Of a stretch of DNA of 64,000 bases, positions 1,575-48,560 are shown one piece after another. This DNA comes from Argopecten irradians. Its lineage: Eukaryota; Mollusca; Bivalvia; Pectinida; Pectinidae. A program made the position numbers and the translations under genes. The notes under the pieces were generated by a model. That model made no database searches. It saw nothing but the letters and a program-made list of their open reading frames with translations, and had not been told where the DNA came from. Positions within the stretch are counted from its first letter, which is position 1, and each line of letters starts with the position of its first letter. The DNA lies in contig NC_091138.1 of NCBI RefSeq assembly GCF_041381155.1, positions 19,407,255 through 19,471,254 on the forward strand, read 5' to 3'.

Positions 1575-4500
1575 TTTATGCACTGGAGATTGGTTTATCA
1601 AACTTTTACAAAAACACACTGGGATTACAAGCCTGCAACAAGAGGTAAATGAACAATATATAAACAGTCTATCATAGGGTGGATACACTACCAAGTTAAA
1701 ACCAAGGGGATGTCTTGTGAGTGATTTATAATTGATTTCCAAGCTCATTTATTCTTGTAATGTTCAAAATTGTGTTACTTTAATGTAAAATTAGGCTCTT
1801 AATCTTAGGGAATAAAAATCAACATAGTACTCAAGTTGAAAAGTTCTGAAAGTATGAATACATATTTTTTTGTTATTTGCAATTTTAAGTTTTGCATTTT
1901 AGGATAAAACCGACCAGGTGAAAACATTATTAGAAGCAGTAGATGAAAAATTAGCTGTTGAACAAGGGATTATCAAGTAAGTACAAAGTCTATTTCAAAT
2001 GTTACATGGACACATGAACTATGCTCTTTGAAACAAATATGAATAACCTTTACTACAAGCAATGTGTATGTACAAGTTTGGTGATAATCTAATCTTTCCA
2101 ATCTAAACACTTTTGACATATCTGTATATAATATGTTCAAAATATTTTATACTACGTGTATTATGATAGTTAAATTTGTCAGTATGATTTTAGTGTGGTT
2201 TATATCTTTTCATATCTCTACATTATTTTTTCAAGTTTTTACAAAATTTTATTTCAATACAGATCTGTAAATTGAAATAGATAATACAAGGCAATGCCTT
2301 TGTAATTTCCCCTTAATTGTGCATAATGGTATAGGCTGCACAGTAAATTTAATCATATTCATATCAATATTTGTCCAAAGTAATTTTCTGTATTGCTAAT
2401 ATGTATTGTAAAAGTACATGTACATGTTTAAGACATTGTAATCATTTTGCTCCATGGTCCGTATGTGCATTGATAGCTACAATGTGTAAAACAATGGATA
2501 TAAACCTGGTCATACTTGAGTAATCTTTTATTCAGCACCAGGGTCATTGTAGAGATTAAACAACGCCAGGTATTTTACCAATCAAAAAACATTCCTGTAA
2601 TTCAAAACATTGGGCTGGATTATGTGTATTATATATTGTACAGGTCATTTAGGCAGATTTAAACTTCTGAATTATCTGGGAACTGATGTCACACAGTTTA
2701 TCATGACAGCTAACGTGCGGATTACCTTTGTTTCAGTCCTGCCGAAGTTGTCGATGGAACAATCGACGAGCATACGTTGATGATATATATCTCTCTGCTA
2801 CAGAGAAAGGTTTGTTTATAATTGGTGAATTTTAAAATAAGAAATTAGCTTAATCTTAATTGGGAATTTGTTGTCAAAATGAAACAAACATTTAGTTTGA
2901 AGTATCATCAGCATTGACTCTTGTATAAAATGATTGTCATAATATTAGAAAAATTTTATAACGATAAAGAATTATGACTTTACTATTGCCATTGAAGCTA
3001 AAATTATATCTGTCATTTAATTGCAAATATATCTTACTGAAATCATTATTCATTATATTCACTATAGAATGTATTGCATTTCATTGATACAGGTAGGAGG
3101 AAATGAATCTGTTGAAAATGGCGATCACAATCCAGGCATTTCAGAACAGGTTAGTTGATACAAAAATCAGGTATTTACCTCATTTTACCGAAGTCATTGG
3201 TTTTATCTTGGTATATGGACTGGATAACGAGTTATCCTCGGTTAGAATCCCTACATGTGTTTTATCACTGAGCAGTATTCATGTACTCTTATGTTACAGT
3301 TGGCTAAGTTGTTTTTAAGCGTCTGACATGACATGATCTTTCTTAAGGCATGAGTGAAAAAGATTCTTAAGGAATGAGTGAAAAAGAGCTACTTAGTGCC
3401 GTTAATTAGCTTTACCTTCATGCAAGAAGTAAAGAAAGACATTGGATCAAACTAGTTGCTAGTAAGATTAAGGGAAAAGGAACAGAGGTCAAGTAGTTCT
3501 AATATGTTTGCCTATTAATCTAGATTCCATTGTGACACTATTATGGGAAACGAACATTTAAAGTGCAACCCTGAACTGTTAGCTAGCTTTAGTGTTGATA
3601 CCTATAGCATTATGTCCTGCAATGGTTGAACAAATTAGTCTATCGAAGTTTATATTGAAAAAGGATTATTAATATCTTGATTTTTTTTTATTTTCAATTT
3701 AGGGATTACCTGATTGGCACCATATGTCCAATGGAAACGTTCATGATGATCAACTAAGTGCAACTTCTGGTTCCATTTCTCTAACCTCTGGGTACAATCC
3801 AAGTGATTCGGATAGAAAAGATAGTGATCGGAGGTCTCCCAGTCGTGACAGATCAACAACCTCGGGGTATAGCGGTATTTCTGGTCAAAGTGACATTGAT
3901 CGCCGACAACGTGGAAGTGATCGCTTGAGAGACAGTTTTGATAGAAAGCAAAGAAAGAGAAGTCCTGGAAGTCCCGGTTTACAACGTCCTCGCAGTCACC
4001 GAGTTATCATGGCGGAAATGAAGGAAAAGCTCGATGTTGAGCAAAGAAAGAAAGAAAGAGAAGAAGCAGAAAGGCAACGAAATGAAGAGGATGAAAGAAG
4101 AAGAAAAGCAAGACTGGAAATTGGTATGAGCCGAGATATGGGCGGGACACCAGGAAATAGAATATCTAGTGAGGATACAAGGCAGATAGGAGAAAGAAAT
4201 TCTTTCTCAGAACAACCTCAATTGATAAGTGCAAATCCTCAGTTATTTCAAGGAATGGGCGGTGTTCCAATTTTCGTCATGCCTAGCCAAGGACCACAAG
4301 CCATGCTTTTGCTTCAGGCTCTTCAACAGGCGCGCCAAGAGGTCAACTTTCACGATACAGAGAAATATTCATCCTCTGATCAGACTTTGCCAAAGTTACA
4401 TACTTTGTTAGATTTGGATGCTGTTGATGAATATAGTCCAATTGTAAATGCAAATGGTGGAGAATCACTTGAATATATTGAAGAATCGCCAGCAAAAAAG

Positions 4501-15040: not shown

Positions 15041-15088
15041 TCTCTACCGTACGGCGGCGTATTAGGGCCACTGCAAAATTTGATTTAT

Positions 15089-15438
15089 CTTGTACGTACA
15101 AGTTATAATCTTGTACGTACAAGTTAATATCTTGTACGTACAACTTAGTATCTTGTACGTACAAGTTACTATCTTGTACGTACAACTTAGTATCTTGTAC
15201 GTACAAGTTACTATCTTGTACGTACAACCTAGTATCTTGAACGTACAACTTAGTATCTTGTACGTACAAGTTAGTATCTTGTACGTACAAGATACTGCAA
15301 GATAGTATCTTGTACGTACAACTTAGTATCTTGTACGTACAAGATACTGCAAGTTAGTATCTTGTACGTACAAGTTAATATCTTGTACGTTCACGTTAGT
15401 ATCTTGTACGTACAACTTAGTATCTTGTACGTACAAGA
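15089..15438. repeat. 21-bp palindromic array, left arm
   Basis: About 16 units of pattern CT-TGTACGTACA-A(C/G)TTAGTAT, each containing a perfect 12-bp palindrome TTGTACGTACAA with a pitch of 21 bp. The linker is most often ACTTAGTATCT. Confidence 0.9.
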
Positions 15439-15611
15439 TAGTACAATGTTGAAACTCTCGGTATTAAAGAATGTGACTGGTTTACTGTCACAATCGCATC
15501 GCATGAAGCTATACGTATATTACGTACCCTTTGTTTAAGCCAAATGGAAAAAAAGAATACCTTGCGACATTTTGTGGAGTTGTGATGCTTTGATAAGTTT
15601 CCGAACATATA

Positions 15612-16261
15612 CAGGGTGTCCCAAAAAACATGTCCCGACTTTGACGGATAATAAATTTTGCAATACTAAACTTTTTTTGAAAATTCAAAATGATTTGGAA
15701 AGCAGGAGTATCCAAATTTAACTTAATTGGGTACAAATTTACAGATTACATCGCCATTATGTGTGATGACGTCATAATAGAAATGATGATATCATTGATT
15801 ATGTCATATTTTGATGACTTTCTAGCACCATGAAGATTCATGCTGAAGTTATTAAAATCTACAATGCGATCGGAAAATCCCATACTTACATTAATGAAAT
15901 TTTATGAAAATGTCACCCAGGTATGCTGTCCATCTGCAGGAAGCAGATTTACAGAATTGTGAGGTGGTGAGGAATTTCTGGGTCAGAAGTCATCTTGTCA
16001 TCGAAAAGAAGGGCGGACACCTCGTGCCCATTCTTTAACTGAAAGTTATTGATTTTCTGAACAAAACGCAAAATTAGCGAAATATGACTTTCTCTCGATT
16101 TTCAATATAAGTCTTCACAAGAAGATATTCGTCCGGATTGTTATATATCGTTGTACAGAGCAGATTACTACCTTTCTAATGGTAAATAGATCAAATTCCT
16201 CTGTCTACCAAAACCATTTTTATAAAGCGTCAAACTCGGGATATGTTTTTGGGACACCCTG
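15612..16261. mobile_element. Nested mariner/Tc1-like element, decayed
   Basis: Ends are inverted: CAGGGTGTCCCAAAAA at 15612 and TTTTTGGGACACCCTG ending at 16261. TA lies directly outside both ends (15610-15611, 16262-16263), the mariner/Tc1 target. The interior has only short frames (one starts MKIHAEVIKIYNAIGKSHTY near 15831) and several stops, so it is non-autonomous or decayed. It sits inside the 15049-17474 element. Confidence 0.75.
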
Positions 16262-16823
16262 TACATGTAAATGTTTATAACGGAGTAATAAATATGATCA
16301 TCATTTGGACAATAATTGATGTGTGTATATATGTCTAATAAACACAAAAAAACATATGAAATAATTTGTTTTGCCTTTGTTGTCTTTGCAATCAGTGCAA
16401 TCAGTAACTCGTTCGAATTAGGGCATAATGCTTAGGATTTTTTTCGGAGGCAGTTAATTATTTTCAATACTAATATTCTGATGTAAAATAAATGCTCCAA
16501 CATTTCCAATAATGGCACCAGTATGAAGTATTTAACTTTAATTACTGAAGAAAATTACGAATTTGTTTTCTCCTCTTTTTAATAGATAAAACTTATCATT
16601 TATCGGAGATGTATCATATACATTTCATCACTAAAATATCTTATCTATAAAACAAGCGACTATACAGTTTCCTCGAAAGGAACTATACAGTGTCAGTTTC
16701 AAAATAATGCAAGTGACTATACAGTTTCAACTCATAATCCGGCAATTTCAAATTATGATTGTGAAAAAGATATTGTCCTCATTAATATATATTTATAATT
16801 TTGAATATTGTCAAATAAGTTAA

Positions 16824-17180
16824 AGATGCTCCACCGCTGACAAATGGTATTTTTTACACCATCAAAAACAGGAGCAGACGATTTTGTATTTTTCTTCAGT
16901 TAAAAAAGTTACTGACTTTACACCATTACCACCATTGAAAAGTTTGAGCTTCTAATTTTAATTCAAGTTAAAAATATGAAAAATAATTAATTGCATCCCG
17001 AAAAAATTCCGTGGCACTATATCTTATATAGAATGGAGTAATGATTGCGCATGCACCAAAGGCAAAACTAATTATTTTATGTTAGTTTTTGTGTTAATTA
17101 GACATATATATACACGATTAAACACCAATTATTGTTCTAATGATGAATATCATTTATGCTCTGTCGGCGGTGGAGCATCT
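16824..17180. mobile_element. MITE with TTAA target, nested
   Basis: Ends are AGATGCTCCACCGCTGACA and TGTCGGCGGTGGAGCATCT, flanked on both sides by TTAA (16820-16823 and 17181-17184). A TTAA target suggests mobilisation by a piggyBac-type transposase. A second, diverged copy is at 58905-59276. No coding capacity. Confidence 0.8.
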
Positions 17181-17294
17181 TTAATAAACCTGTGATCGTG
17201 CTTGAAGCAATGAAAAGTAGACAGACTATCTTTAATTACGAAAAATATCAGGCAGAGGACTCAATTCTGCGGTGATGAACAGCAGTTCAACTCA

Positions 17295-17434
17295 ACTTGT
17301 ATGTACAAGTACTAAGTTATACGTACAAGATACTATCTTGTACGTACAAGATACTAACTTGTAAGTACAAGATACTAAGTTGTACGTACAAGATACTAAG
17401 TTGTACGTACAAGAAAATAACTTGTACGTACAAG
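17295..17434. repeat. 21-bp palindromic array, right arm
   Basis: About seven units of the same TTGTACGTACAA palindrome, with linkers in the opposite orientation (AGATACTAAGT) to the left arm. This mirrors the terminal inverted repeat symmetry of the enclosing transposon. Confidence 0.85.
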
Positions 17435-18156
17435 ATAAATTAAATTATATAGTGGCCCTAATACGCCGCCGTACTACCGCTATTGCAAATCGTGGAGCCT
17501 GTTTTACTATTTCCAATTGTTTTTGTGACAATTACTTCATAAAACAGGTGCTTCCTTGTGATCTATTTTGTTGACTCATGGAAGGATATTCTTAACCAAG
17601 ATCAATAGGTACAATATACATGTATATTTCAAAGGCAGTTTTGGTTTATGCTTGAAGTTCGATAAAATGCACATCAATTTAACAGAATATTAAAATATCA
17701 GAAAAATATAAATTTGAAATACTCTTTCACATAAAAATAAAAATAAAAATAAATGAAGAAACATAATCTGGAAATCTGAATATTTCGAGAAAACATTGTT
17801 AGATTTAAATTTTAAAATAAAATCCTTTTACCATGGGGATTAGATAAAGATATCTGTAAAAATCGTATGTACTGGGCTTAAACGGTCTGTTGCCTAGAAT
17901 TTCCATTTAATTTCAACGGAATTCCGGTCTCATTCATCAACGCCGCACGTCGCGCTATTGCATAACTTAACTCGGTCCTTTGGACCAGTTGAGCTAAAAT
18001 GAGTAAATGCTATGGCAAGCCAATTTAAAATTTATTGAAGGAGCAAGGTCCATCCAGAATTTAATCGCATTATATAAGATATCTCATATTATTATATTCG
18101 ATATCGGGCCCTTCGGGTCAGGTGAGCTTTACAAATGTCTATGCAAGCGATGGGTT

Positions 18157-19900
18157 ATACGGAACTCGGGTCTGGTTCCTAGTTCCGTATAAGCTTAAAC
18201 GGAACTCGGGTCTGGTTCCTAGTTCCGTTTAAATTAAACGGAACTGAGGTCTAGGTATCAGATCCGTTTAAGAAAATCTGTGTTATAGAGATAAATTATA
18301 TAAGTTGTATCGTTCCTGAAGCTCAGAGCTAGATTCCTTTATAACATATGTAATTTATTATCTTATAAGAGGTAGAAATCCTAATAAACGGAACTCGGCT
18401 CGTTGACCAGTATTTTTGTTAAACGGAACTCGGGTCTGGTTCCTAGTTCCGTATAAGCTTAAACGGAACTCGGGTCTGGTTCCTAGTTCCGTTTAAGTTA
18501 AACGGAACTGAGGTCTAGGTATCAGATCCGTTTAAGGAAATCTGTGTTATAGATATTAATTCTGTTCTATATTATTCATGGAAGCTCTAAGTTCGATTCC
18601 TGTATATAATAGGTAATTGAACATGCAGTTAGAGATAGGAATCCTAATAAACGGAACTGCGCTCGTTGGCCAGTATGTTTGTTAAACGGAACTCGGGTCT
18701 GGTTCCTAGTTCCGTATAAGCTTAAACGGAACTCGGGTCTGGTTCCTAGTTCCGTTTAAGTTAAACGGAACTGAGGTCTAGGTATCAGATCCGTTTAAGG
18801 AAATCTGTGTTATAGATATTAATTCTGTTCTATATTATTCATGGAAGCTCTAAGTTCGATTCCTGTATATAATAGGTAATTGAACATGCAGTTAGAGATA
18901 GGAATCCTAATAAACGGAACTCGGCTCGTTGGCCAGTATGTTTGTTAAACGGAACTCGGGTCTGGTTCCTAGTTCCGTATAAGCTTAAACGGAACTCGGG
19001 TCTGGTTCCTAGTTCCGTTTAAGTTAAACGGAACTGAGGTCTAGGTATCAGATCCGTTTAAGGAAATCTGTGTTATAGATATTAATTCTGTTCTATATTA
19101 TTCATGGAAGCTCTAAGTTCGATTCCTGTATATAATAGGTAATTGAACATGCAGTTAGAGATAGGAATCCTAATAAACGGAACTGCGCTCGTTGGCCAGT
19201 ATGTTTGTTAAACGGAACTCGGGTCTGGTTCCTAGTTCCGTATAAGCTTAAACGGAACTCGGGTCTGGTTCCTAGTTCCGTTTAAGTTAAACGGAACTGA
19301 GGTCTAGGTATCAGATCCGTTTAAGGAAATCTGTGTTATAGATATTAATTCTGTTCTATATTATTCATGGAAGCTCTAAGTTCGATTCCTGTATATAATA
19401 GGTAATTGAACATGCAGTTAGAGATAGGAATCCTAATAAACGGAACTCGGCTCGTTGGCCAGTATGTTTGTTAAACGGAACTCGGGTCTGGTTCCTAGTT
19501 CCGTATAAGCTTAAACGGAACTCGGGTCTGGTTCCTAGTTCCGTTTAAGTTAAACGGAACTGAGGTCTAGGTATCAGATCCGTTTAAGGAAATCTGTGTT
19601 ATAGATATTAATTCTGTTCTATATTATTCATGGAAGCTCTAAGTTCGATTCCTGTATATAATAGGTAATTGAACATGCAGTTAGAGATAGGAATCCTAAT
19701 AAACGGAACTCGGCTCGTTGGCCAGTATGTTTGTTAAACGGAACTCGGGTCTGGTTCCTAGTTCCGTATAAGCTTAAACGGAACTCGGGTCTGGTTCCTA
19801 GTTCCGTTTAAGTTAAACGGAACTCGGGTCTGGTTCCTAGTTCCGTTTAAGTTAAACGGAACTCGGGTCTGGTTCCTAGTTCCGTTTATTAAACGGAACT
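18157..19900. repeat. 263-bp satellite array
   Basis: The start motif aaacggaactcgggtctggt recurs at 18421, 18684, 18947, 19210, 19473 and 19736: an exact 263-bp pitch, with a diverged first copy from about 18157. Each monomer contains two or three short inverted blocks, AAACGGAACT ... AGTTCCGTTT, able to form hairpins, plus a unique 150-bp part. The array ends (19800-19900) in extra copies of the hairpin block alone. Near-identity of the middle monomers implies recent amplification or homogenisation. Confidence 0.93.
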
Positions 19901-21140
19901 AGGAACTAGGAACTCGCAACCAACTTCAGCCCTCCGACAATACAAAACTCCAAATAGCCCCAAATACATTGTAACTACAATCTGTGTGGTGAAGAAAGTC
20001 AATGAAGAAAAGAAGCAGATTAAGTCAAGATTGTCTGGAAATAGTTATGGTGCCCGTGATCATCCAATTATGAATCTAAAATGCATCCTAGAGAGTTTTA
20101 TTCTTTTAAAACATATTTGGAGGAAAGTAATGAAGAAATGAAGCCGACAAAGGTTTTCTATAGGTATATACGTGTAGTAACAATGATCTTTGTAGTTATT
20201 CGTTTGACTAATTATTCAATTGCTAATAGACAAATAAGTGTTATTCATAAACTACCGGTGTATGAAATTTCAACAAAATCCACCGATTCGTTCATAATTT
20301 ATTGTCTTGAAACCAATATCTGGAAAGACAGCCGGAGAATATAGTCCCCTCCGGTTTTCACCTAACAATGAAACCATTGTTTCGATGAACTGTGAAGTGG
20401 AATATATCCTTATGGAAACAAGAAGCAATTTCAACTTATTTTATTAACATCAAACTAAAATAATACTTAAATTAGGAGACATATGCATCTTTATTGCTAT
20501 CTCGCTAACACATGCTGTAAAAACATCAAACATCACATTCAACGTGGTCACATCATACAAACGACGGGTAAACTAGCTAGCACTCCTTCTCTGCTGACCG
20601 CTAAACAGGAGAAGAATTTACCATTTTATAGACTACGATGTGCTTAGGCCAGACGTAAGACAAATATGTTATGGCTATACGTTTGGTACAAGAGGTACAA
20701 ATATCAGGTCCTGACTGCAGGACGGCAGACACACAATACTATGTTTATAACATACCCAGCACTACATTGTTATGCCCTATATCGAGATATTCGAAGTATC
20801 TATCATATACACCATCACATATGTACGTCCATTTGTCTCTTTGGCTACACAAATTACAGTTCAATCGAAGGAAGAAAAAAAATGATATAGTGTATCATTT
20901 CACTGCGTCTTGTTATATTATATTTTTATCGACATTTTTTTTTCATACATTAAAAATGGTACTAAAGTAATTATAAATCTATATTGGTTCTGTTTGTGTA
21001 GAAATTAATAACAATTTTTAAGAAGGAAAGGAATATACGAAAACCAAGCAAAAATATAATATGACATTATTTAAATGCGCCAATTCCTTTCAATACTAAA
21101 TCTTTAATATGTCTGTGATCAACTTACCAAAGCACGCCGT
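19901..21140. other. No feature recognised
   Basis: AT-rich DNA between the satellite and the GIMAP duplication. ORFs are short and not protein-like. From about 21148 the sequence resembles 34318 onward, the distal border of the duplicated GIMAP segment. Confidence 0.4.
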
Positions 21141-21286
21141 TTATAGTGACTTGTACATGTATAATAGGTTCATCGTCTAGTTAGGCATTGATCGTCGTTA
21201 TTGTTAAATAGTACTAATCCACACCCTATCATTCAGACGCTATTCCACTTATGTCTTACACAGAAGAAACTACGCCCAGTCTAAAG

Positions 21287-21457
21287 TTATTCCATTAAAG
21301 TTAACAACTGCCAGATCCCCCATCCCATTTCCGCAGCCCCCTTGATTGTTGCAAACACCGCTTCAGCTTTTGTCTTTGCTAATCTGATGCCGAGGCTTCT
21401 TTCATATTTTCTATCTATAATGTTTGAATGTTCTTGTATTCGTTGGTCTTGGTTTCT
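21287..21457 (-). pseudogene. Detached C-terminal tail of GIMAP copy 1
   Basis: On the minus strand this encodes a tail starting NQDQRIQEHSNIIDRKYE and ending KGAAEMGWGIWQ followed by LLTLME and stop. It matches the tail still joined to the third GIMAP fragment (34052-34311). A 569-bp MITE now separates it from the body of the gene, so it is probably no longer translated in frame. Confidence 0.7.
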
Positions 21458-21460
21458 TAA

Positions 21461-22029
21461 AGGGACAATTCATTCTACGATAACATTAAAATTTGTATAT
21501 ATATCGGAAAACCCCCAGTTCTAATGGAAATTAGATCAGTCGGTTTTACTGTGATATGTCAGAAAATCCCATGGTGGTGAAATGCGTGTGAAATGTTCAA
21601 ACTCACTCGCTGTCCGCCATTACACATTGTGGTCGAATATCTTGTATGCCGAACCCAGTCCCTTACTCGTAGAGTAATGCTACTTTTGTCTAGAACTGCT
21701 CAAATCGCTCTGACAGAAGTGTGTTTACCTTATTAGGTGAACTGTTTTGCCTAAAAAATCATTATATCACCTCCACAGTGGTTATGTAGTTCATTTGTTT
21801 CACGTGCGTGACTTTGGCTCGGATATTGGTACAGCGTACATATTGTACCTGCTTAATCGTATTGATCAACGATTTGTAATTACAACGGTATTAATTAAAT
21901 TACTAAACAATGACGTGGAATTTGTCAATATCTTATGTTATATGTTTCATAAGAAATGTAGAACAATACATTTATGCCATATTTTGCTTCTTGGTTATGT
22001 AAAAGATTTAGCCTGAGTGAATTGTCCCT
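21461..22029. mobile_element. MITE inserted in the last GIMAP exon
   Basis: Termini AGGGACAATTCA and TGAATTGTCCCT are inverted and flanked on each side by TTAA (21457-21460 and 22030-22033). About 150 bases of the interior recur at about 51196-51350. The paralogs at 34.2 and 34.6 kb lack it and give the empty site. It replaces the GIMAP C-terminus with KGQFTQAKSFT and a stop. Confidence 0.85.
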
Positions 22030-23941
22030 TTAAACAGAGCTGACGCTGCTGTTTTGCATCATTAGCTTGTTCCATGTATTTCTTAGCCTCCTCTTCCATT
22101 CGTTTCAAATCTCTTTTCACCATTTTGATTTCTTCTTCATCTTTCAATGACTTGTCATGTAACCTTCTTGCCATCATTTCCTTCTCTTTGGTGACATTTT
22201 TAATTTCTATTTCTGCCGATTTACTCTTTGCTTCCAAACGCTGTCGTTCATCTTGAAATTCTTTCTCTATTTGTTTTTTAATTTGATCTTTTTCTTTTTT
22301 CTTTTCTATATCTTTTTGACGTCTTATTTCTTCTTCCCTTTCACGACAAACTCTTTCTGCCGTCTTATACATTTCGTTTGTATAGTATTTACCGCCATGT
22401 TTTTCCACTAGGCCATTGACGAGATCAAAGATTTCCTTTGCATCCCTATTGCGGGATTCCTTGTCTGAAGTGTTATCGATTGCTAAGCAACGATTGTTGC
22501 ATTTTTCAATGACTCCCTTCAATGAGGGCGGGACTGTCTGCAGAAAACTTTCGATTGATCGGTTATGTTTCTCCAGCTCATCTCTCCCCGTAAACACTAC
22601 TATCATATGTTGAAACATGTCTTCCCCAAAAACTTCTGTGAAATGCTTGATAGTTTCGCTCTCTTCTGGAGTGAATCTTCCTGTCTTAAGTACCAACAAA
22701 AATGCATGTGGACCAGGCAAGGACAGACTGATACATTTTGCAACTTCCTTCAGGATTTCTGTATTGGGTACACCTGTATCGAACGCTCCTGGAGTATCGA
22801 TTAATAATATCTTCTTTCCAAGCCACAAAGCTGTAGCATCTTGACATTTTTCTGTAACTGATGAAGCTGCAAAGGTTGATCTAAATACTGTTTTTCTTAA
22901 AAAGGTGTTTCCTGTCGAACTCTTTCCAGATCCGGTCTTCCCCAGAATCACGATTCTCAAAGTATGCTGTTCTTCTATGTTACAGACACCTTTTTGAAAT
23001 AAATACATTGTTAGTATATATATATAACAGAATCAAAGGAAGTCAGATAATGTTGCAAGAGTTATTGAAAGATTGAAACAATGATATTAACATTTCGTTG
23101 AAACGACGAAGAACAAATAAATCAGTAAAACGGAATTTCCTTATTGCGAATAAAGTAAGAATAATAGAGAAACTTAGGATTTGGTATGAGATATTAATAT
23201 ATACATAATATAGTATGCAATTTTGATCAATTATCTAAACTTGTTGACTTTCCGTCTCAATAGTATCGAATGATGTTATTATGACCATTCCGTGGTCTAG
23301 ATAACGATAGAGAAGAGTGTTTTATGGAATTGTGTACCTACCTGGTGCGGTGACTTCTATCTGCTGTTCTATGCCATGGGTATTCGTAACGCCAGTATGC
23401 AGACAAGTGTCATATGCCATATCTTCAGTAACAACTATGTAAGAAGGAAAGCATTTTCCGGTTATGTTTCTTTTCTAACAATTACATTGCCGTATTTCAC
23501 GCTTCACTTAATCATTTAACATCGTAAGTACAACAACATAATTACATGTACTGTGCTAATTTAGAATTATAATGATATTTTTGTGTGCATATTTTTGCAC
23601 GTTATAATGTACTTTCGTACAACTCTTCCCTTTGACCTTAGGAAAGGTAAGCAAATAGTTACCGGAGCATAACAAGATACTCTCTACTCATAGATGTAAA
23701 ACTCACTGTCAGAGCATGTACCAAGTTCTCGTGGACTATCTTCATCGTCGATCGGATGTCTTGTGTCTTGGAATTTGTCCAGTAGATGGTTGATACATCT
23801 ATTTAAGTCATTTTTGTTTCTGTGGTCAAGAACCGTATCGTATAGTACGTCATCACTAGCGTGTGGAAATATAAGTGACAGTTCCTGCTTCAAAGTGACC
23901 TGTTGAAGTGACAATTGCTCTTCAAGCTCTGCAAGCTCCAT
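21995..23941 (-). CDS. CUE-like/GIMAP (AIG1) GTPase, copy 1
   Basis: Three-exon model on the minus strand: 23707-23941, 23342-23434 and 21995-22989. All junctions are GT-AG and keep phase 1; the product is about 440 residues. Exon 1 starts MELAELEEQL and carries a CUE/UBA-like module (LIFPHASDDVLYDTVLDH ... DLNRCINHLLD, residues about 20-60), which would bind ubiquitin if functional. Exon 2 is a 31-residue linker. Exon 3 holds the AIG1 domain: P-loop GKTGSGKS, G3 DTPG, the GIMAP box PGPHAFLLVLKTGRFTPEE and FTGRDE at G4. A charged coiled coil follows. Bivalve GIMAPs are linked to immune and stress responses (family knowledge). The C-terminus is altered by a MITE. A start within exon 3 at 23008 would fall in the intron. 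The 5'UTR exon and promoter probably lie near 27.85 kb. Confidence 0.8.
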
Positions 23942-24484
23942 AATCCGTCCCTGGAATTCAGTTCATAAGTAATTAAGTACATATTTAGCGTCGTCAAATG
24001 AACCTAATATAGTTTAAAATATAATCGTCATACGGAATGTTTCATTTTGTCAGCAAGTGATTGCACACAGACAATGGCCTTTTCTTGAAAAAAATGGCGC
24101 ACGCTCGTAGAATATTAGTAAGTAAAATGCAGGTGGTCAGTCTCAGAATGTCTTGTATCAGAAGTGACAAGCCCAGACACGCTATTATATTCGTGCAGTA
24201 GCAAAAGCACCTTGTAATTTGAGCCTTTAACAAGAACTTAGAACACATGTTAAAAAACACTCCGTTTTCTATATATGCTTTATATAATGAGAAATACTTG
24301 TATGCTTTAGGATAAGTTTAAACGCCTTAAGGCGTATATATTTTACTTGTGTCGAATACCATGCCCTAAGTAATGAGCTGCAGAGAAATGACAACAGACA
24401 GTCACAAAATGTTACCGTCGTACATTTGAAACAAAGCGCCAAAGATCCGAATAGGTCCCAGTGTTATGTATGGCACTAGTTACA

Positions 24485-25175
24485 TGTAGTTATTAAATAA
24501 GGGGGAGATAACTCATATAGCTATATTATCAATACATCCTAAGGTTATGTCATTGATTAAGGTTATAGAACTTTCTAGAATAATATCATGTATAAACATA
24601 CATGTTTGTAAACATGTTGATTATAAGTAGGGATCTAGAATGATCTATTTCCAGAAAGTTCTGTGTGTTTATTTGTTTACTGTTTTAGTTAGATATTTCT
24701 AGAAGTAGAAGGTTCTCCAATACTCTTGAATTAGGGTTTAACTATATATACTCCAGCTTCCCAAGGCTAATCATAACTGTAATGAGACCTGTAATTAGAC
24801 ATATCAAGAATTGATTCTATTGGGAGAGTTATTGTGACTTTATCTGTGGATTGTTACAACGCATTGTGTGGATTGATTCATATTGCCTGGAACTTTACAA
24901 TTTATCTGTGGACATTCATTTTCCTCGTAGAGTTGTGAATATTGTTAATTAGGAACCTGGAAGGATTAAGAATTATACCAGGACATTCACATACAGATAA
25001 GTAACACTTTAAATTATCGTATTACTCTTGTACCACCACCGATTACTTTAGATATTGTATTCCATCTCTGTATAATATTGTATATAAAAATAAATTGTGT
25101 TTTGAATTTAGCTTCTGGTTTCTCATTTCTGTTATTCTTGTTCATAACCAAATACCTGCTTAATTTTTCATAGCA
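24485..25175 (+). mobile_element. Possible solo LTR or 5' LTR fragment
   Basis: The block begins TGTAG and ends TAGCA, with near-identical flanks TTACA and TTACG. It has a TATA box (24743-24750) and an AATAAA signal (25089-25094) in LTR order. The following 'tggtggctgattgtgg' resembles a primer-binding region of Gypsy-type elements. No internal coding region is attached. The boundaries are weak; it could instead be a fragment of a cellular promoter. Confidence 0.3.
24568..24750 (+). promoter_or_regulatory. Heat-shock-element cluster upstream of a TATA box
   Basis: Three HSF-type sites are present: GAActTTCtaGAA (24568-24580), TTCcaGAAagTTC (24649-24661) and TTCtaGAAgtaGAAggTTC (24697-24715). 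A TATATATA box follows at 24743-24750. The nGAAn/nTTCn spacing is perfect in the first two. No coding region is recognised downstream on this strand. Confidence 0.6.
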
Positions 25176-25230
25176 TTACGGATAAGCGTACTATGGTGGC
25201 TGATTGTGGACACACAATCAATATTTTTTA

Positions 25231-25496
25231 CTCGTTATAATGACTTAGTATCTCGTTATAACGACTTAGTTATCTCGTTAGAAAGACTTTGTATCTCGTT
25301 ATAACGACTTAGTCATCTCGTTATAACGACTAAGTATCTCGTTATAACGACTTAGGTATCTCGTTATAACGACTTAGTTATCTCGTTATAACGACTTAGT
25401 TATCTCATTATAACGACTTAGTTATCTCGTTATAACGACTTAGTTATCTCGTTATAACGACTCACTTATCTCGTTATAAAGACTAAGTATCTCGTT
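25231..25496. repeat. 21-22-bp palindromic array (CGTTATAACG core)
   Basis: About 12 units of CTCGTTATAACGACTTAGT(T)AT with the perfect palindrome CGTTATAACG. The linker ACTTAGTATCT is identical to the commonest linker of the 15.1-kb array, although the palindrome differs. No flanking TIR pair was found. Confidence 0.9.
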
Positions 25497-28177: not shown

Positions 28178-29290
28178 AGAGGCCCAGAGGGCCTGTATCG
28201 CTCACCTGGTTGGTAATGTCAAGTTATGTTCTGAATACAGGTTCATTGTTTCTTTTCTGAAGGAATTTGAATATTTACCTCTTATTTCCCTATTGGGCCC
28301 CGCCCCTCCTGCCAACGGTGGGTCAGTGCCAAAATCTATACAAGTTCTGTTCCCCTTCCCCCAAGGATATTTGTGGCCAAATTTTGTTACAATCCATGCA
28401 GACCTCTAAGACAAGTAGCAATTTATAGGATTTAACTCTATTTCCCCTTTTGGGCCCCGCCGCTCCTGCCACGGGGGGTCAAAGCCAAAATTTATACAAG
28501 TTCTGTTCACTTCCCCCACGGATGTTTGTGGCCTAATTTTGTTACAATCCATGTAGAACTCTAGGACAATCAGCGATTTATAGGATTTACCTCTATTACC
28601 CCTATTGGTCCCCGCCCCTTCTGCCCTCGGGGGTCAGAGCCAAAATTTATACAAGTTGTGTTCCCCTTCCCCCAGGGATGTTTATGGCCAAATTTGGTTA
28701 CAATCCATGCAGAACTCTAGGACAAGTAGCGATTTATAGGATTTACCTCTATTTCCCCTATTGGACCCCGCCCCTCCTGCCCCCGGGGGGACAGAGCCAA
28801 AATTTATACAAGTTGTGTTCCCCTTCCCCCAAGGATGTTTGTGGCCAAATTTGGTTACAATCCATGCAGACCTCTAGGACAAGTAGCGATTTATAGGATT
28901 TACCTCTATTTCCCCTATTGGGCCCCGCCCCTCCTGCCCCCGGGGGGTCAGAGCCAAAATTTATACAAGTTGTGTTCCCCTTCCCCCAAGGATGTTTGTG
29001 GCCAAATTTGGTTACAATCCATGCAGAACTCTAGGACAAGTAGCGATTTATAGGATTTACCTCTATTACCCCTATTGGGCCCCACTCCTCCTGCCCCTCG
29101 GGGGTCAGAGCCAAAATTTATACAAATTCTGTTCCCCTACACCCAAGGATGTTTGTGGCCAAATTTGGTCACAATCCATGCGGAACTCTATGACTAGTAG
29201 CGATTTAAATTAAATGTTGACGGACGGACGACGGACGGACGGACGACGGACGCCGCGCCATGACATAAAGGGCCAGGTGAGCTAAAAATA
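28178..29290. mobile_element. Pearl-type (Helitron-related) element
   Basis: About six head-to-tail copies of a 157-bp core (its 'ggatgtttgtggccaaattt' motif falls at 28676, 28833 and 28990) are followed by a GACG/ACGG microsatellite (29218-29252). The ends are 'gaggcccagagggcc...gctcacctgg' and 'gggccaggtgagctaaaa'. Core repeats plus an ACGG tract is the published layout of bivalve Pearl elements, thought to be Helentron-associated and non-autonomous. The 72-residue frames in the cores are artefacts. Confidence 0.85.
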
Positions 29291-30962: not shown

Positions 30963-31586
30963 GGAAAGGACATGAAAAAAAGAAGCGTAATGCGAACGCA
31001 ATCCTTTTGCGACATATTGCCACAAGCCCTTCACTTCTGGGTCGCGAGTTATAATCCCATGTGGAGAAGTTGCCAGGTACTAACAGCTGATCGGTGGGTT
31101 TTCGGTTCCTCCACCAACAAAACCTGACACGTCCATAAATGGTCCCATATGATAATAAGAAGTTAAATTTATACAACCAAAAATAATAAATGTTGCGTAT
31201 GAACACAATAGCATTGCATGCAATTCCAATAGTATTGCGTAGAAACGCAAAATACTATTGCGCTTAAACGCAAAAATCATTGCGTGTTAACGCAATAATT
31301 GCTGTGTACGAAGGCAATCGCATTGCATGTGATCCCAATACTATTGCGTAGAAACGCAAAATACTATTGCGTTCGAACGCAAAAATCATTGCGTGTTAAC
31401 GCAATAATAGCTGTGTACGAACGCAATAGTATTGCATGCAAGCGAAAACATGATTCTCTGCTAACGCAATAGTATATTGCGTTCACACGCAAAAGTATTA
31501 CGTTCACTTGCAATATTTATTACACCCAAAACAGTTACGAAATAATGATTGCAAACGCAATACCTTTTTTTATTCATGTCCTTTCC
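30963..31586. mobile_element. TIR element with TTGCGT...ACGCAA array
   Basis: Termini GGAAAGGACATGAA and TTCATGTCCTTTCC are inverted, each followed inward by a poly-A/T tract and TTGCG-rich sequence. The interior from about 31196 is an array of palindromic units. No coding frame is supported and no clear target duplication was seen. Confidence 0.65.
31196..31560. repeat. 22-23-bp array of TTGCGTnnnnACGCAA units
   Basis: Units such as TTGCGTTCGAACGCAA, TTGCGTAGAAACGCAA and TTGCGTGTTAACGCAA alternate with linkers AATACTA and AAATCA. A higher-order repeat of about 115 bp is visible (31240 and 31355). The linker ATACTA echoes the TAGTAT linker of the other two palindromic arrays. Confidence 0.85.
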
Positions 31587-34511: not shown

Positions 34512-36340
34512 GTTATTACATTAAAGTTAACCACTGCCAGATCCCCCATCCCAAGTCCGCAGCCCCCTTGATTGCTGTATACACCGCTTCAGCTTTTGTC
34601 TTTGCTAATCTGATGCCGAGGCTTCTTTCATATTTTATTTCTATAACGTTTGAATCTTAAACAGAGCTGACGCTGCTGTTTTGCATCATCAGCTTGTTCC
34701 ATGTATTTCTTAGCCTTCTCTTCCATTCGTTTCAAATTTCTTTTCATCATTTTGATTTCTTCTTCATCTTTCAATGACTTGTCATGTAACCTTCTTGCCA
34801 TCATTTCCTTCTCTTTGGTGATATTTTTAATTTTTTCTTCTGCGGATTTACTCTTTGCTTCCAAACGCTGTCGTTCATCTTGAAATTCTTTTTCTATTTG
34901 TTTTTTCATTTGGTCTTTTTCTTTTTGTTTTTCTATATCTTTTTGACGTCTTATTTCTTCTTCCCTTTCACGACAAACTCTTTCTGCCTTCTTATACATT
35001 TCGTTTGTATAGTAGTTACCGCCATGTTTTTCCACAAGACCATTGACGAGATCAAAGATTTCCTTTGCATCTCTGTTACGGGATTCCTTGTCTGAAGTGT
35101 TATCGATTGCTAAGCAACGATTGTTGCATTTTTCAATGACTTCCTTCAATGAGGGCGGGACTGTCTTCAGAAAAGTTTCGATTGACTGGTTATGTTTCTC
35201 CAGCTCATCTCTCCCCGTAAACACTACTATCATATGTTGAAACATGTCTTCCCCAAAAACTTCTGTAAAATGCTTGACAGTTTCGTTTTCCTCTGGAGTG
35301 AATCTTCCTATCTTAAGTACCAACAGAAAGGCATGAGGACCAGGTAAGGACAGACTGATACATTTGGCAACTTCCTTCAGGATTTCTTTATTGGGTATAC
35401 TTGTATCGAACGCTCCTGGGGTATCTAATATCTTCTTTCCAAGCCACGAAGCTGTAGCATCTTGACATTTTTCTGTAACTGATGAAGCTGCAAAGGTTGA
35501 TTCTAATACGTCTTTCCTTAAAATGGTGTTTCCTGTCTCACTCTTTCCAGATCCGGTCTTACCAAGAATCACGATTCTTAAAGTATGTTGTTCTTCTGTT
35601 CAGCATGTGCCTTTTTAAAATAAATTCATTGTTTGTATTTATGTTCGATGAAGTAAGTCAGTTAGATAATATCCCAAAAGTTATTGAAAGGATTGAAACT
35701 GATATTAACTTTTCGTTGAAGCAAGAACGAACATCCCTAAAGTGAAAACATCGAAAGAGGATTCCCTTATTGCGAGCAAAGAATAATTGAATGGAAAGAA
35801 ATATTCCCTCGAGGAGAAGTAGTGAAAGTTATGCTTGTATTCGGTAATTCGGTACCATATATATGATTGCATGAAGTGTTATAAGAGCAAGCATTTTTAA
35901 ATTATTCATCCATTCCCGTTGAATGTTTCCTCTAAAAGCTATTTTTTGTTCTTGTTTTTGTTTTTAATTACCATAATATGTAGGTATTTTCGAGCTTTTT
36001 ATATAAATAGTCATATTAACTCTGTTATAATGCACAAGCGTACAACCCTTCCCATTGACACTTTTTTGGAAAAGTAATCAATAACAAGTATTAAGCAAAC
36101 CTTAATTTTAGAACGTGTAGCAAGTTCCTGTGGACTATCTTCATCGTCGATCGGATGTCTTGTGTCTTGGAATTTGTCCAGTAGATGGTTGATACATCTA
36201 TTTAAGTCATTTTTATTTGTGTGGTCAAGAACCGTATCGTATAGTACGTCATCACTAGCGTGTGGAAATATAAGTGACAGTTCCTGCTTCAAAGTGACCT
36301 GTTGAAGTGACAATTGCTCTTCAAGCTCTGCAAGCTCCAT
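34512..36340 (-). pseudogene. GIMAP copy 2, pseudogene
   Basis: A close paralog of copy 1. The CUE-like exon (about 36120-36340, MELAELEEQL...INHLLDKFQD) and the GTPase exon (34628-35595, P-loop GKTGSGKS, DTPG, PGPHAFLLVLK) remain. The exon-1 donor seen in copy 1 is lost. The 31-residue middle exon is absent. With copy-1 splicing a TGA would fall just before EQHTLRIV. Two residues are missing before DTPG. A deletion of about 26 bp after LCLR shifts the tail out of frame. The remaining 314-codon frame could still be transcribed, but loss of function is likely. Confidence 0.75.
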
Positions 36341-46439: not shown

Positions 46440-48560
46440 TTGGTAAGGTTAGGGACTCTGGTGTTTTAGTGTTATGCTAGACGAGTCGACAGATGTGTCA
46501 GTTCATCAGAACATGGTTGTGTATGTTAGGGTCTTGGAGAAGGTGTTAGGTACGTTAAAGCCTTCAACTTACTTCTTAGGTATTAAGCAGTTGGCTTCGG
46601 CAACAGTAGATAGTATTAGGTCAGAGTTGTTAGAGTTGTTAGCTGACAAGGGTTTAGATGTTAGAAACATGGCAGGAGTTGCTACTGATGGTGTTTCTGT
46701 GATGGTAGGGTGTAAGAAGGGAGTTGCTACTGATGGTGTTTCTGTGATGGTAGGATGTAAGAAGGGAGTTGCTACTGATGGTGTTTCTGTGATGGTAGGA
46801 TGTAAGAAGGGAGTTGCTACTGATGGTGTTTCTGTGATGGTAGGATGTAAGAAGGGAGTTGCTACTGATGGTGTTTCTGTGATGGTAGGATGTAAGAAGG
46901 GAGTTGCTACTGATGGTGTTTCTGTGATGGTAGGATGTAAGAAGGGAGTTGCTACTGATGGTGTTTCTGTGATGGTAGGATGTAAGAAGGGAGTTGCTAC
47001 TGATGGTGTTTCTGTGATGGTAGGATGTAAGAAGGGAGTGTTGCTACTGATGGTGTTTCTGTGATGGTAGGATGTAGGAAGGGAGTTGCTACTGATGGTG
47101 TTTCTGTGATGGTAGGATGTAAGAAGGGAGTTGCTACTGATGGTGTTTCTGTGATGGTAGGATGTAAGAAGGGAGTTGCTACTGATGGTGTTTCTGTGAT
47201 GGTAGGATGTAAGAAGGGAGTTGCTACTGATGGTGTTTCTGTGATGGTAGGATGTAGGAAGGGAGTTGCTACTGATGGTGTTTCTGTGATGGTAGTATGT
47301 AGGAAGGGAGTTGTTACTCAGTTGAAGGAGGTTTGTCCAGGGTTGATAGGCATTCACTGTATTGCACATAGGTTAGATTTAGCTAGTGGTTCTGCAGCTG
47401 ATAGCATTAGGTATCGTGTCAAGTTTCAGGAGGTTCTGAACAGCATGTTCAAGTATTTTGAGTTTTCTCCCAAGAACATGGCTAGGTTAGAGGCTGTTCA
47501 GGCAGTGTTAGAGGATATGAGGTGTACAAGGCTAAAGCAGGTTTTCCACACTAGGTGGTTAAGTTTTCAAGGTAGTGTACAGTCAGTTGTTGATAATTTC
47601 TCAGTACTAGTTAGTGTCTTTCTTGAGGACAAGCCGGCTAAGGCTCTGTCTATGCACAAGCCTATCACTACTTTCAAGTTCCTGTATGTGGCTCACTTTC
47701 TGGCTGATGTGTTGAGTCATCTTTCCATTGTGTGCAAGTCTTATCAGCAGTCAGCGATAGATTTCACTGTAGTCAACCCACTCCTCCATTCTACAGTTCA
47801 GGTCATTGATGACATCAGGGATAAGAAGTGTGGGGAGAATTTGGTCAGGTTTTTACAGGTAGTGCTCCTGAGCCAATTGTAGATGATACAGGGTTGTTTA
47901 CATTTGAGTTCAAATGTCATACTATTAGGGATGGTAGTGCTCAGAGGGCAGAGGCAGTTAGTGCTTGTGAGGCGTTTGTAGACAAGGTAGTTGTAAATCG
48001 GAAGGATAGGTTCATGGAGAAGGAGGATGCAGCTACTCTGTCCAGTGTTAGCAAGTTGTTCACTCCAGGTTTGTGTTTGTCAGGTGTGTCTGTGGATGTA
48101 GTAGAGGATGTATCAGGTTATGTCAGTAGGTGTGGGTTAGGGTCAGATCTAGAGTGTAGGCAGCAGGTCTCAGGTTTCAGGGCTTTTGCTAAGGTTCAGG
48201 TAGAGTCAAATAGTGAGTGTTTTGGTACTCGGAGGGATGTAGCTAATTTAGCAATTAGGTGTAGGGATAAATTTCCTTTGTTGGCTGCGGCTGCTGAGCG
48301 GCTCCTTGTTGTACCTGTCTCTACTGTGGATTGTGCAGACAGAACCTCATCAAGACCAATCTACGAAACAGCCTTGGCCCAAAGTCTCTGGAGAACTTGA
48401 TGAGAATCTCAATCCACAGTGGAGACATAGACCTGGATGCTGCTTTTCACAAGTGGGCCTCTGCCAAGCAGAGGAGGATCCTGATGCCCCACCATTGACT
48501 AATGGAGTTCAGAGTGACTGTGTTTTGAGGATTATCTGTGAACATTGTGACTGTTAGCCT
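46440..48560 (+). mobile_element. Broken hAT-type transposase (ZNF862-like family)
   Basis: Frames in order: SGVLVLMLDESTDVSVHQNM (first catalytic Asp region), a repeated ATDGVSVMVG motif (second Asp region), IGIHCIAHRLDLASG, VFHTRWLSFQGSV, then FTFEFKCHTIR and a C-terminal dimerisation region on another frame near 48350-48460 (RNSLGPKSLENLMRISIHSG ... FHKWASAKQRR). Three frame breaks are visible: in the 45-bp array near 47035, near 47860 and near 48340. An AATAAA follows at about 48745. No N-terminal BED finger and no TIRs were identified, so this is a truncated DNA transposon or a dead domesticated copy. Confidence 0.8.
46675..47306 (+). repeat. 45-bp coding repeat of a catalytic-motif block
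   Basis: Fourteen tandem copies of a 45-base unit encoding GVATDGVSVMVGCKK. Copies 1-8 are in one frame. A two-base insertion at about 47037 shifts copies 9-14. Copies are nearly identical, with R-for-K changes in later ones. The unit covers the conserved DG-x-x-VM-G segment of the hAT catalytic core. Confidence 0.95.

Follow-up and report, generated by a model that had tools for sequence, protein, structure and literature searches.

Palindromic minisatellites sharing a linker word are probable subterminal arrays of related transposon families in Argopecten irradians

The array at 15.1 kb lies within a complete transposon

The window analysed here is a stretch of 64,000 nucleotides of the Argopecten irradians genome (assembly GCF_041381155.1, contig NC_091138.1, positions 19,407,255 to 19,471,254), which carries two minisatellites built of palindromic cores and linkers, at 15.1 kb (array 1) and 25.2 kb (array 2). 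A first-pass annotation made from the letters alone had placed both arrays there, as their coordinates and pitch confirmed, and had described them as joined by one 11-mer, ACTTAGTATCT, at a pitch of 21-22 bp. This word was found on the + strand of both arrays, five times in array 1 and once in array 2, as one of several variants in each: the other junctions of array 1 read AGTTACTATCT, AGTTAGTATCT, AGTTAATATCT and similar, and the commoner linker of array 2 is ACTTAGTTATCT (five occurrences). The pitch held for array 2 and for 13 of the 15 steps of array 1 (21 bp), but not for the two others, which measure 31 bp. Fourteen of the 16 TGTACGTACA-type cores of array 1 are exact.

Array 1 belongs to a complete transposon with terminal inverted repeats (TIRs), a target-site duplication (TSD) and an inverted partner array (Table 1). 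The partner, at 17294-17437 and absent from the first-pass annotation, is the reverse complement of array 1; the arms 15049-15213 and 17310-17474 are 91% complementary and form the ends of a 2424-bp element with the inverted termini TACGG..CCGTA. A survey of 20 loci gave seven pairs of ends, six of which are flanked by a perfect 6-bp TSD: five of the six pairs from the family of the window element (family 1; CTACCG, CATTAC, GGTTTT, ATTTTC and GGGAAG) and locus L080, which belongs to a family with GTCGAC repeats (AAAAAT). The sole miss, L009, showed no TSD. A 23-bp family-1 terminus had 315 exact matches (156 + 159) in the 846-Mb genome and none with the reversed pattern, the control used for all pattern searches; many of the matches listed form +/- pairs 0.1-2.6 kb apart.

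These ends bear on the idea that such arrays are nucleosome-excluding or structural minisatellites unrelated to transposons. The regular 21-bp pitch would suit it, but the 15-kb array is part of an element with TIRs and a TSD, which contradicts it for that array, and we consider this explanation hardly credible. A satellite reading was dropped on the same grounds. Helitrons and Helentrons are rolling-circle elements without TIRs or TSD, and a Helitron reading was dropped because both are present in the window element.

Within the window element, part of the stretch missing from other family-1 copies is 72-75% similar, in inverted orientation, to the element's own body, and the nested insertion is presumably a Tc1/mariner-like miniature inverted-repeat transposable element.

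Table 1 Features of the two arrays and their elements in the window (TIR, terminal inverted repeat; TSD, target-site duplication)
Feature	Position	Strand	Basis or remark
Left TSD, CTACCG	15044..15049	.	Identical 6 bases at 17474-17479; TIR 14/14, TSD 6/6
Complete non-autonomous IS3EU-type transposon, family 1, 2424 bp, ends TACGGCGGCG...CGCCGCCGTA	15050..17473	+	
Left terminal segment, 41 nt from tip to first core	15050..15090	+	Equal length in family 2
Left subterminal array, 16 TGTACGTACA-type cores, pitch 21	15091..15440	+	
Remnant of family-1 transposase gene start	15474..15608	+	95/113 identical to L081 gene start, E 3e-26, plus 15-bp piece
Nested insertion at TA, ends CAGGGTGTCCC / GGGACACCCTG	15610..16263	.	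Sequence; alignment break against other family-1 copies
Extra stretch, missing from other family-1 copies compared	16824..17180	.	Alignment
Right subterminal array, inverted partner of 15091-15440	17294..17432	-	
Right terminal segment, 41 nt	17433..17473	-	
Right TSD, CTACCG	17474..17479	.	TIR/TSD scan
Family-2 terminal segment, TATGGTGGCTGATTGTGGACACAC..., 41 nt to first core	25192..25232	+	Similar termini beside arrays elsewhere
Subterminal array, CGTTATAACG-type cores, pitch 21-22	25231..25496	+	
Element body common to three other family-2 copies, 79-87% identity	25491..25674	+	

Family-1 arrays precede transposase genes

Family 1 was linked to an IS3/IS481-like DDE transposase. A search of the genome with PF24764 gave 153 matches, and a longer family-1 terminus was found at 91 places, of which one (locus L081) precedes a PF24764 match on C5 by 3.8 kb. 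Directly behind TGTACGTACA/ACTTAGTATCT arrays lie two transposase genes, at C5:8412077 and C5:8349127. At L081 a copy of non-autonomous type comes first, then a terminus that is imperfect, some 58 array units (2329-3497) and the gene (ATG at 3568); at L082, 62 kb away, a canonical terminus (692) is followed by 34 exact cores (first at 733, last at 1426) and the same gene (ATG at 1497). In both cases the ATG lies 71 bp past the start of the last core, and a GT..AG intron yields a predicted protein of 385 residues. The first exon (276 residues) matched PF24764 with an E-value of 1e-26, and the IS481 and IS3 models of NCBIfam with 1.1e-6 and 0.0014 at scores far below their cut-offs; D131, D190 and E230 are invariant in four transposase sequences. 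IS3EU transposases are marked by the lack of an HHCC zinc domain ahead of the catalytic core; the exon gave no THAP match and no zinc-domain match in Pfam, no motif search for HHCC having been made. A profile search of the PDB returned integrase chains only (E about 0.09). The window element retains 113 bp of the gene start at 84% identity (frame SHEAIRILRTLCLSQME versus THEAIRIFHTLGLSQLE) and therefore derives from a PF24764 transposon.

The same arrangement would suit arrays that serve as operators, bound by a protein that regulates the transposase promoter, and that have no role in transposition, given that the arrays lie between terminus and start codon and that the 71-bp distance recurs in L081 and L082. 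Non-autonomous copies such as the window element nevertheless keep inverted arrays at both ends without a working gene, and we regard this alternative as quite unlikely.

The NCBIfam IS481 model was also tried as a genome route to the transposase and dropped (63 matches scored among 2151 candidates). None of 30 loci found with it carried any searched array word; 13 were translated, and the long frames in four (L047, L061, L069 and L071) resemble retroelement integrases by eye.

A related terminus precedes the array at 25.2 kb

Array 2 belongs to a second family (family 2), in which a related terminus with the tip TATGGTGGC, located at one of the two ends, lies 41 nt ahead of the array. Termini like it adjoin arrays in L039, L017 and L045, and in more diverged form in L025; when L017 is aligned with L039 or L045, the similarity ends at the tip or at most 3 bases from it. 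The terminal segments of families 1 and 2 are alike beyond chance: none of 2000 shuffles aligned as well, with or without the first 5 nt, and only 2 of 2000 did so when the right-hand family-1 segment was compared with the window family-2 segment lacking its tip. Perfect dimers of the CGTTATAACG-type family were found at 12 places (42 matches). A third variant, in L003 and L029, combines TACGGAAG ends with CGTAATAACG cores.

Different transposase lineages carry different arrays

A search with the L082-type exon gave 130 matches, two at 99-100% identity, one at 60%, and others at 43-53% and about 40% or less. Stretches of 431 bases upstream of three relatives (49-60%) were taken. Directly upstream, two of the three relatives have other palindromes at a pitch of 22-23 bp and the third a near-palindrome at about 21 bp.

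The closest of them, L084 (60%), has a terminus-like TATGGTAAGCGTATTAGG, then two GGCGGCCGC(C) cores 23 bp apart, with the ATG 111 bp past the start of the last core; it keeps the ACTTA..TATCT linker, ACTTAATTTATCT, around its GGCGGCCGCC core. In L085 (49%), ACGTGATCACGT, ACGTGCTCACGT and ACGTGAGCACGT follow each other at 22 bp behind eight AAAAATATTTTT, and in L086 (51%) TACGGAAGCGTATTTAGG is followed 42 nt on by seven TGCYCGGGCA-like units at 21-27 bp. Neither of these two arrays has the ACTTAGT/TATCT linker. When the longest palindrome of each unit was compared with 20000 shuffles, 66 were as good for family 1, 187 for family 2, 126 for L084 and 3 for the 22-bp unit of L085.

GTCGAC repeats and TATGGTGGCTGATTACGG ends accompany a 40% relative (L076, L078). 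Downstream of the L078 gene lies an end that is 88% similar to the one in L080, an element of 4589 bp. L076 carries this end piece ahead of its gene, and the link between gene and GTCGAC repeats therefore rests on L078. This terminus class had 468 matches in the genome and none in the control; the left end of the GTCGAC-type transposase copies was looked for and not found. Between L082 and L076, the N-terminal part of the transposase is identical at 38 of 118 positions (32%) and the catalytic part at 72 of 158 (46%). Different arrays stand beside different transposases, and the modular pattern proposed in the first-pass annotation was seen across several transposase lineages.

Two further observations concern these loci. 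Two palindromic arrays stand in succession before the single gene of L085 (C11:10638290-10638720), AAAAATATTTTT (8) and then the ACGTGATCACGT type (3), which might be a core switch caught half-way. The long TIRs of L080, about 370 bp by alignment to L076, are filled with GTCGAC repeats.

Linkers are conserved between families and cores within family 1

The linker-pair pattern ACTTAGTATCTN{8,16}ACTTAGTATCT, i.e. linker-N(8-16)-linker, had 478 matches in the genome versus 3 for the reversed pattern. Among 100 matches listed, 85 had TGTACGTACA-class cores and 15 had CGTTATAACG-class cores, with near variants counted in. Demanding a purine after the linker gave 8 matches, included in the 478, all of them from a single palindrome-free 27-bp array.

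Across 403 family-1 units from 17 loci chosen as non-overlapping, 1.4% of core letters and 8.2% of linker letters departed from the consensus; the linker departures fell mostly at three positions (2, 3 and 6), which vary freely. The picture was mixed in family 2. Its 21-bp units (75 units, 7 loci, L003 and L029 left out) had 5.6% non-consensus letters in the core and 3.9% in the linker, and its 22-bp units (87 units, 9 loci, L003 and L029 included) 5.6% and 12.2%. Nevertheless, ACTTAGTATCT is the commonest linker of the 21-bp units in both families (143/403 in family 1, 49/75 in family 2), whereas 6 of the 10 positions of the consensus core differ between them. The linker is therefore the conserved part between families only, and not within family 1. 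The first-pass expectation of a constant linker with changing cores did not hold in this form; what was borne out is that the two arrays are related, with a shared linker, a replaced symmetric core and a transposon (TIR) context. The contrast between fixed and variable positions of core and linker is only suggestive.

In family 1, neighbouring cores were 21 bp apart in 408 of 459 cases; families 2 and 3 showed a spacing of 21 or 22 bp in 198 of 209. This near-constant pitch fits putative protein sites on one face of the helix, as proposed in the first-pass annotation.

Two other explanations meet these data. In the first, slippage or template switching would passively multiply palindromes in transposon ends, the units being homogenised within each family and the cores differing by drift of ancestral units. 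Array length does range from 4 exact cores (L010, L038) to the roughly 58 units of L081, single arrays repeat a private core variant (e.g. C2:34607223-34607546), and rearranged copies exist. Drift does not readily account, however, for a family-1 core more constrained than its linker when 6 of 10 core positions differ between families and the commonest linker word is unchanged, nor for the palindromes or near-palindromes, spaced at 21-23 bp, that other transposase lineages have at this position; we consider passive expansion unlikely. In the second, the linker (ACTTAGT plus TATCT) would itself be the protein site and the palindromes spacers or by-products of hairpin formation. The linker word is common to both core classes, and TATCT precedes nearly every family-1 core and closes the family-1 terminal segment. 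Against this, the free variation lies in the linker and the family-1 core is nearly fixed, and the arrays of L085 and L086 persist without this linker, which makes a linker site improbable.

Among the places with the linker word, C12:8314573-8314799 is a 27-bp array of ACTTAGTATCT-GTAACAAAAATATAAA, in which the word stands beside a non-palindromic partner.

The arrays as candidate transposase-binding sites

Collectively, the layout suggests that both arrays are probably subterminal arrays of two related cut-and-paste families of the IS3EU kind, each binding its own transposase, with cores that co-diverge with it. By IS3EU kind we mean TAYGG..CCRTA ends, 6-bp target duplications and a PF24764/IS481-like DDE transposase, of which transposase and TSD are known for family 1. 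The palindromic cores would be homodimer sites for the DNA-binding N-terminal part of the transposase of the family concerned, as the layout and the Galileo elements discussed below suggest. Repeats at about two helical turns would line several dimers along one face, which could help end recognition and pairing, and the array may also control the gene, because it occupies the interval from terminus to start codon. In a family split the core and the DNA-binding part would switch jointly, with the catalytic tip kept and the linker kept longer than the core. Relatives in the genome have comparable blocks built on different palindromes, as though every family had altered its own recognition word.

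We propose the generalisation more tentatively: each lineage may have a private palindromic array between terminus and gene, and families may split when the palindrome is replaced mirror-symmetrically along with the DNA-binding part, leaving the tip and the two-turn pitch unchanged and, to begin with, the linker as well.

Several results weigh against binding of each array by its own transposase, or against its extension to all lineages. In the gene-bearing copies no right end was found over about 4.5 kb past the gene (L082/L083) or 1.8 kb (L081), and the far end of family 2 was not found. A transposase gene beside a CGTTATAACG array was not found either: by-eye comparison placed none of the 12 places with perfect CGTTATAACG-type dimers near a listed PF24764 match. 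A linker-bearing array without a palindrome exists, the cores of the 21-bp family-2 units vary no less than their linkers, and the fixed/variable contrast has a Fisher p of 0.076 with mirrored positions counted as independent. Units are few in L084 (2) and L085 (3), the tip-to-core distance of L084 is 62 and not 41, the palindrome of the other unit of L085 is marginal (1051/20000 shuffles), and the unit of L086 is only near-palindromic and not unusual (13336/20000). Finally, L077, a 32% relative, showed no tandem array in 6 kb.

If this generalisation is right, the genome would hold a natural series of specificity switches (cores with GTACGTAC, GTTATAAC, GCGGCCGC, GTGATCAC and GTCGAC), which would stop sister families mobilising each other. 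A single genome seldom shows such escape of sister families, or the joint change of a dimeric protein and its palindromic site. In this one, candidate sites and transposase genes are no more than roughly 100 bases apart at 99%, 60% and about 50% identity, with a looser link for the 40% relative, and the question is therefore approachable with small DNA-binding domains. A class of palindromic minisatellites would also be explained as transposon ends and not as independent satellites.

Comparison with known elements

IS3EU elements have TA..TA ends and usually a 6-bp TSD (PMC10045372), and fungal IS3EU families have TAYGG..CCRTA ends, TIRs longer than 30 bp and a 6-bp TSD (PMC12730594). The window element (TACGGCGGCG..CGCCGCCGTA) fits these termini, as does the one end located for family 2, TATGGTGGC; the 6-bp TSD is perfect in six of seven end pairs (family 1 and L080), and the IS3/IS481-like DDE transposase is shared in the case of family 1. 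The elements differ in their palindromic 21-23-bp subterminal arrays, which the available portions of these descriptions do not mention (PMC10045372, PMC12730594). No account of such arrays in IS3EU elements came up in the literature covered, mostly titles and opening lines of abstracts, with subscription journals and Repbase reports largely outside it; the families may be catalogued there.

Galileo/Foldback elements of the P superfamily likewise have long, internally repetitive TIRs, with about 40 bp of tip common to families and family-specific repeats bound by the THAP domain of the transposase, cross-binding being weak or absent in most tests (PMC3688188). They have a P-type transposase with THAP, unlike the integrase-type transposase, short palindromic units and shared linker found here, and membership was rejected on the integrase-core match and the lack of a THAP match. 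Tetris, a foldback element of Drosophila virilis, also has tandem repeats within its TIRs and tips in common with another element, but its units are about 220 bp and the available text mentions no palindrome switch (PMC4079207). Oyster Helitrons and Helentrons are similar as mobile elements with short tandem arrays (PMC7492417, PMC11136912) and differ from the present elements, which have TIRs and a TSD.

One satellite, CgiSat43 of Crassostrea gigas (21-bp monomer, 66.7% AT, no Repbase match; PMC8268682, Table 1), matches the family-1 unit with ACTTAGTATCT in length and AT content; the two were compared by description only, and this is a lead only. A literature search with literal sequence words returned nothing related, as judged by title.

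Other features in the window

Rfam and tRNA scans of the 64-kb window gave nothing, and viral contigs searched with both array words gave 0 matches. At 31185-31441 an array at about 22-bp pitch has near-palindromic TTGCGT..ACGCAA cores and is perhaps a further family of the same kind; its TIR/TSD candidate is weak only (10/12, 5/6). A 263-bp tandem array (6.5 copies) at 18154-19900 contains 40-bp units with the inverted-repeat ends TTAAACGGAACT / AGTTCCGTTTAA, and no TA..TA ends with a 6-bp TSD were found around it. Repeats of 157 bp with a GACGGACG tail occupy 28273-29252 and recur downstream of the two family-1 transposase genes (L081 6074-6656). Open reading frames at 46474-47882, which we take to encode a hAT-like protein, carry a 45-bp in-frame expansion of about 14 copies reading VATDGVSVMVGCKKG. 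Two similar open reading frames with GKTGSGKS-type P-loops, presumably GIMAP/AIG1-like, lie at 21995-23008 and 34628-35572.

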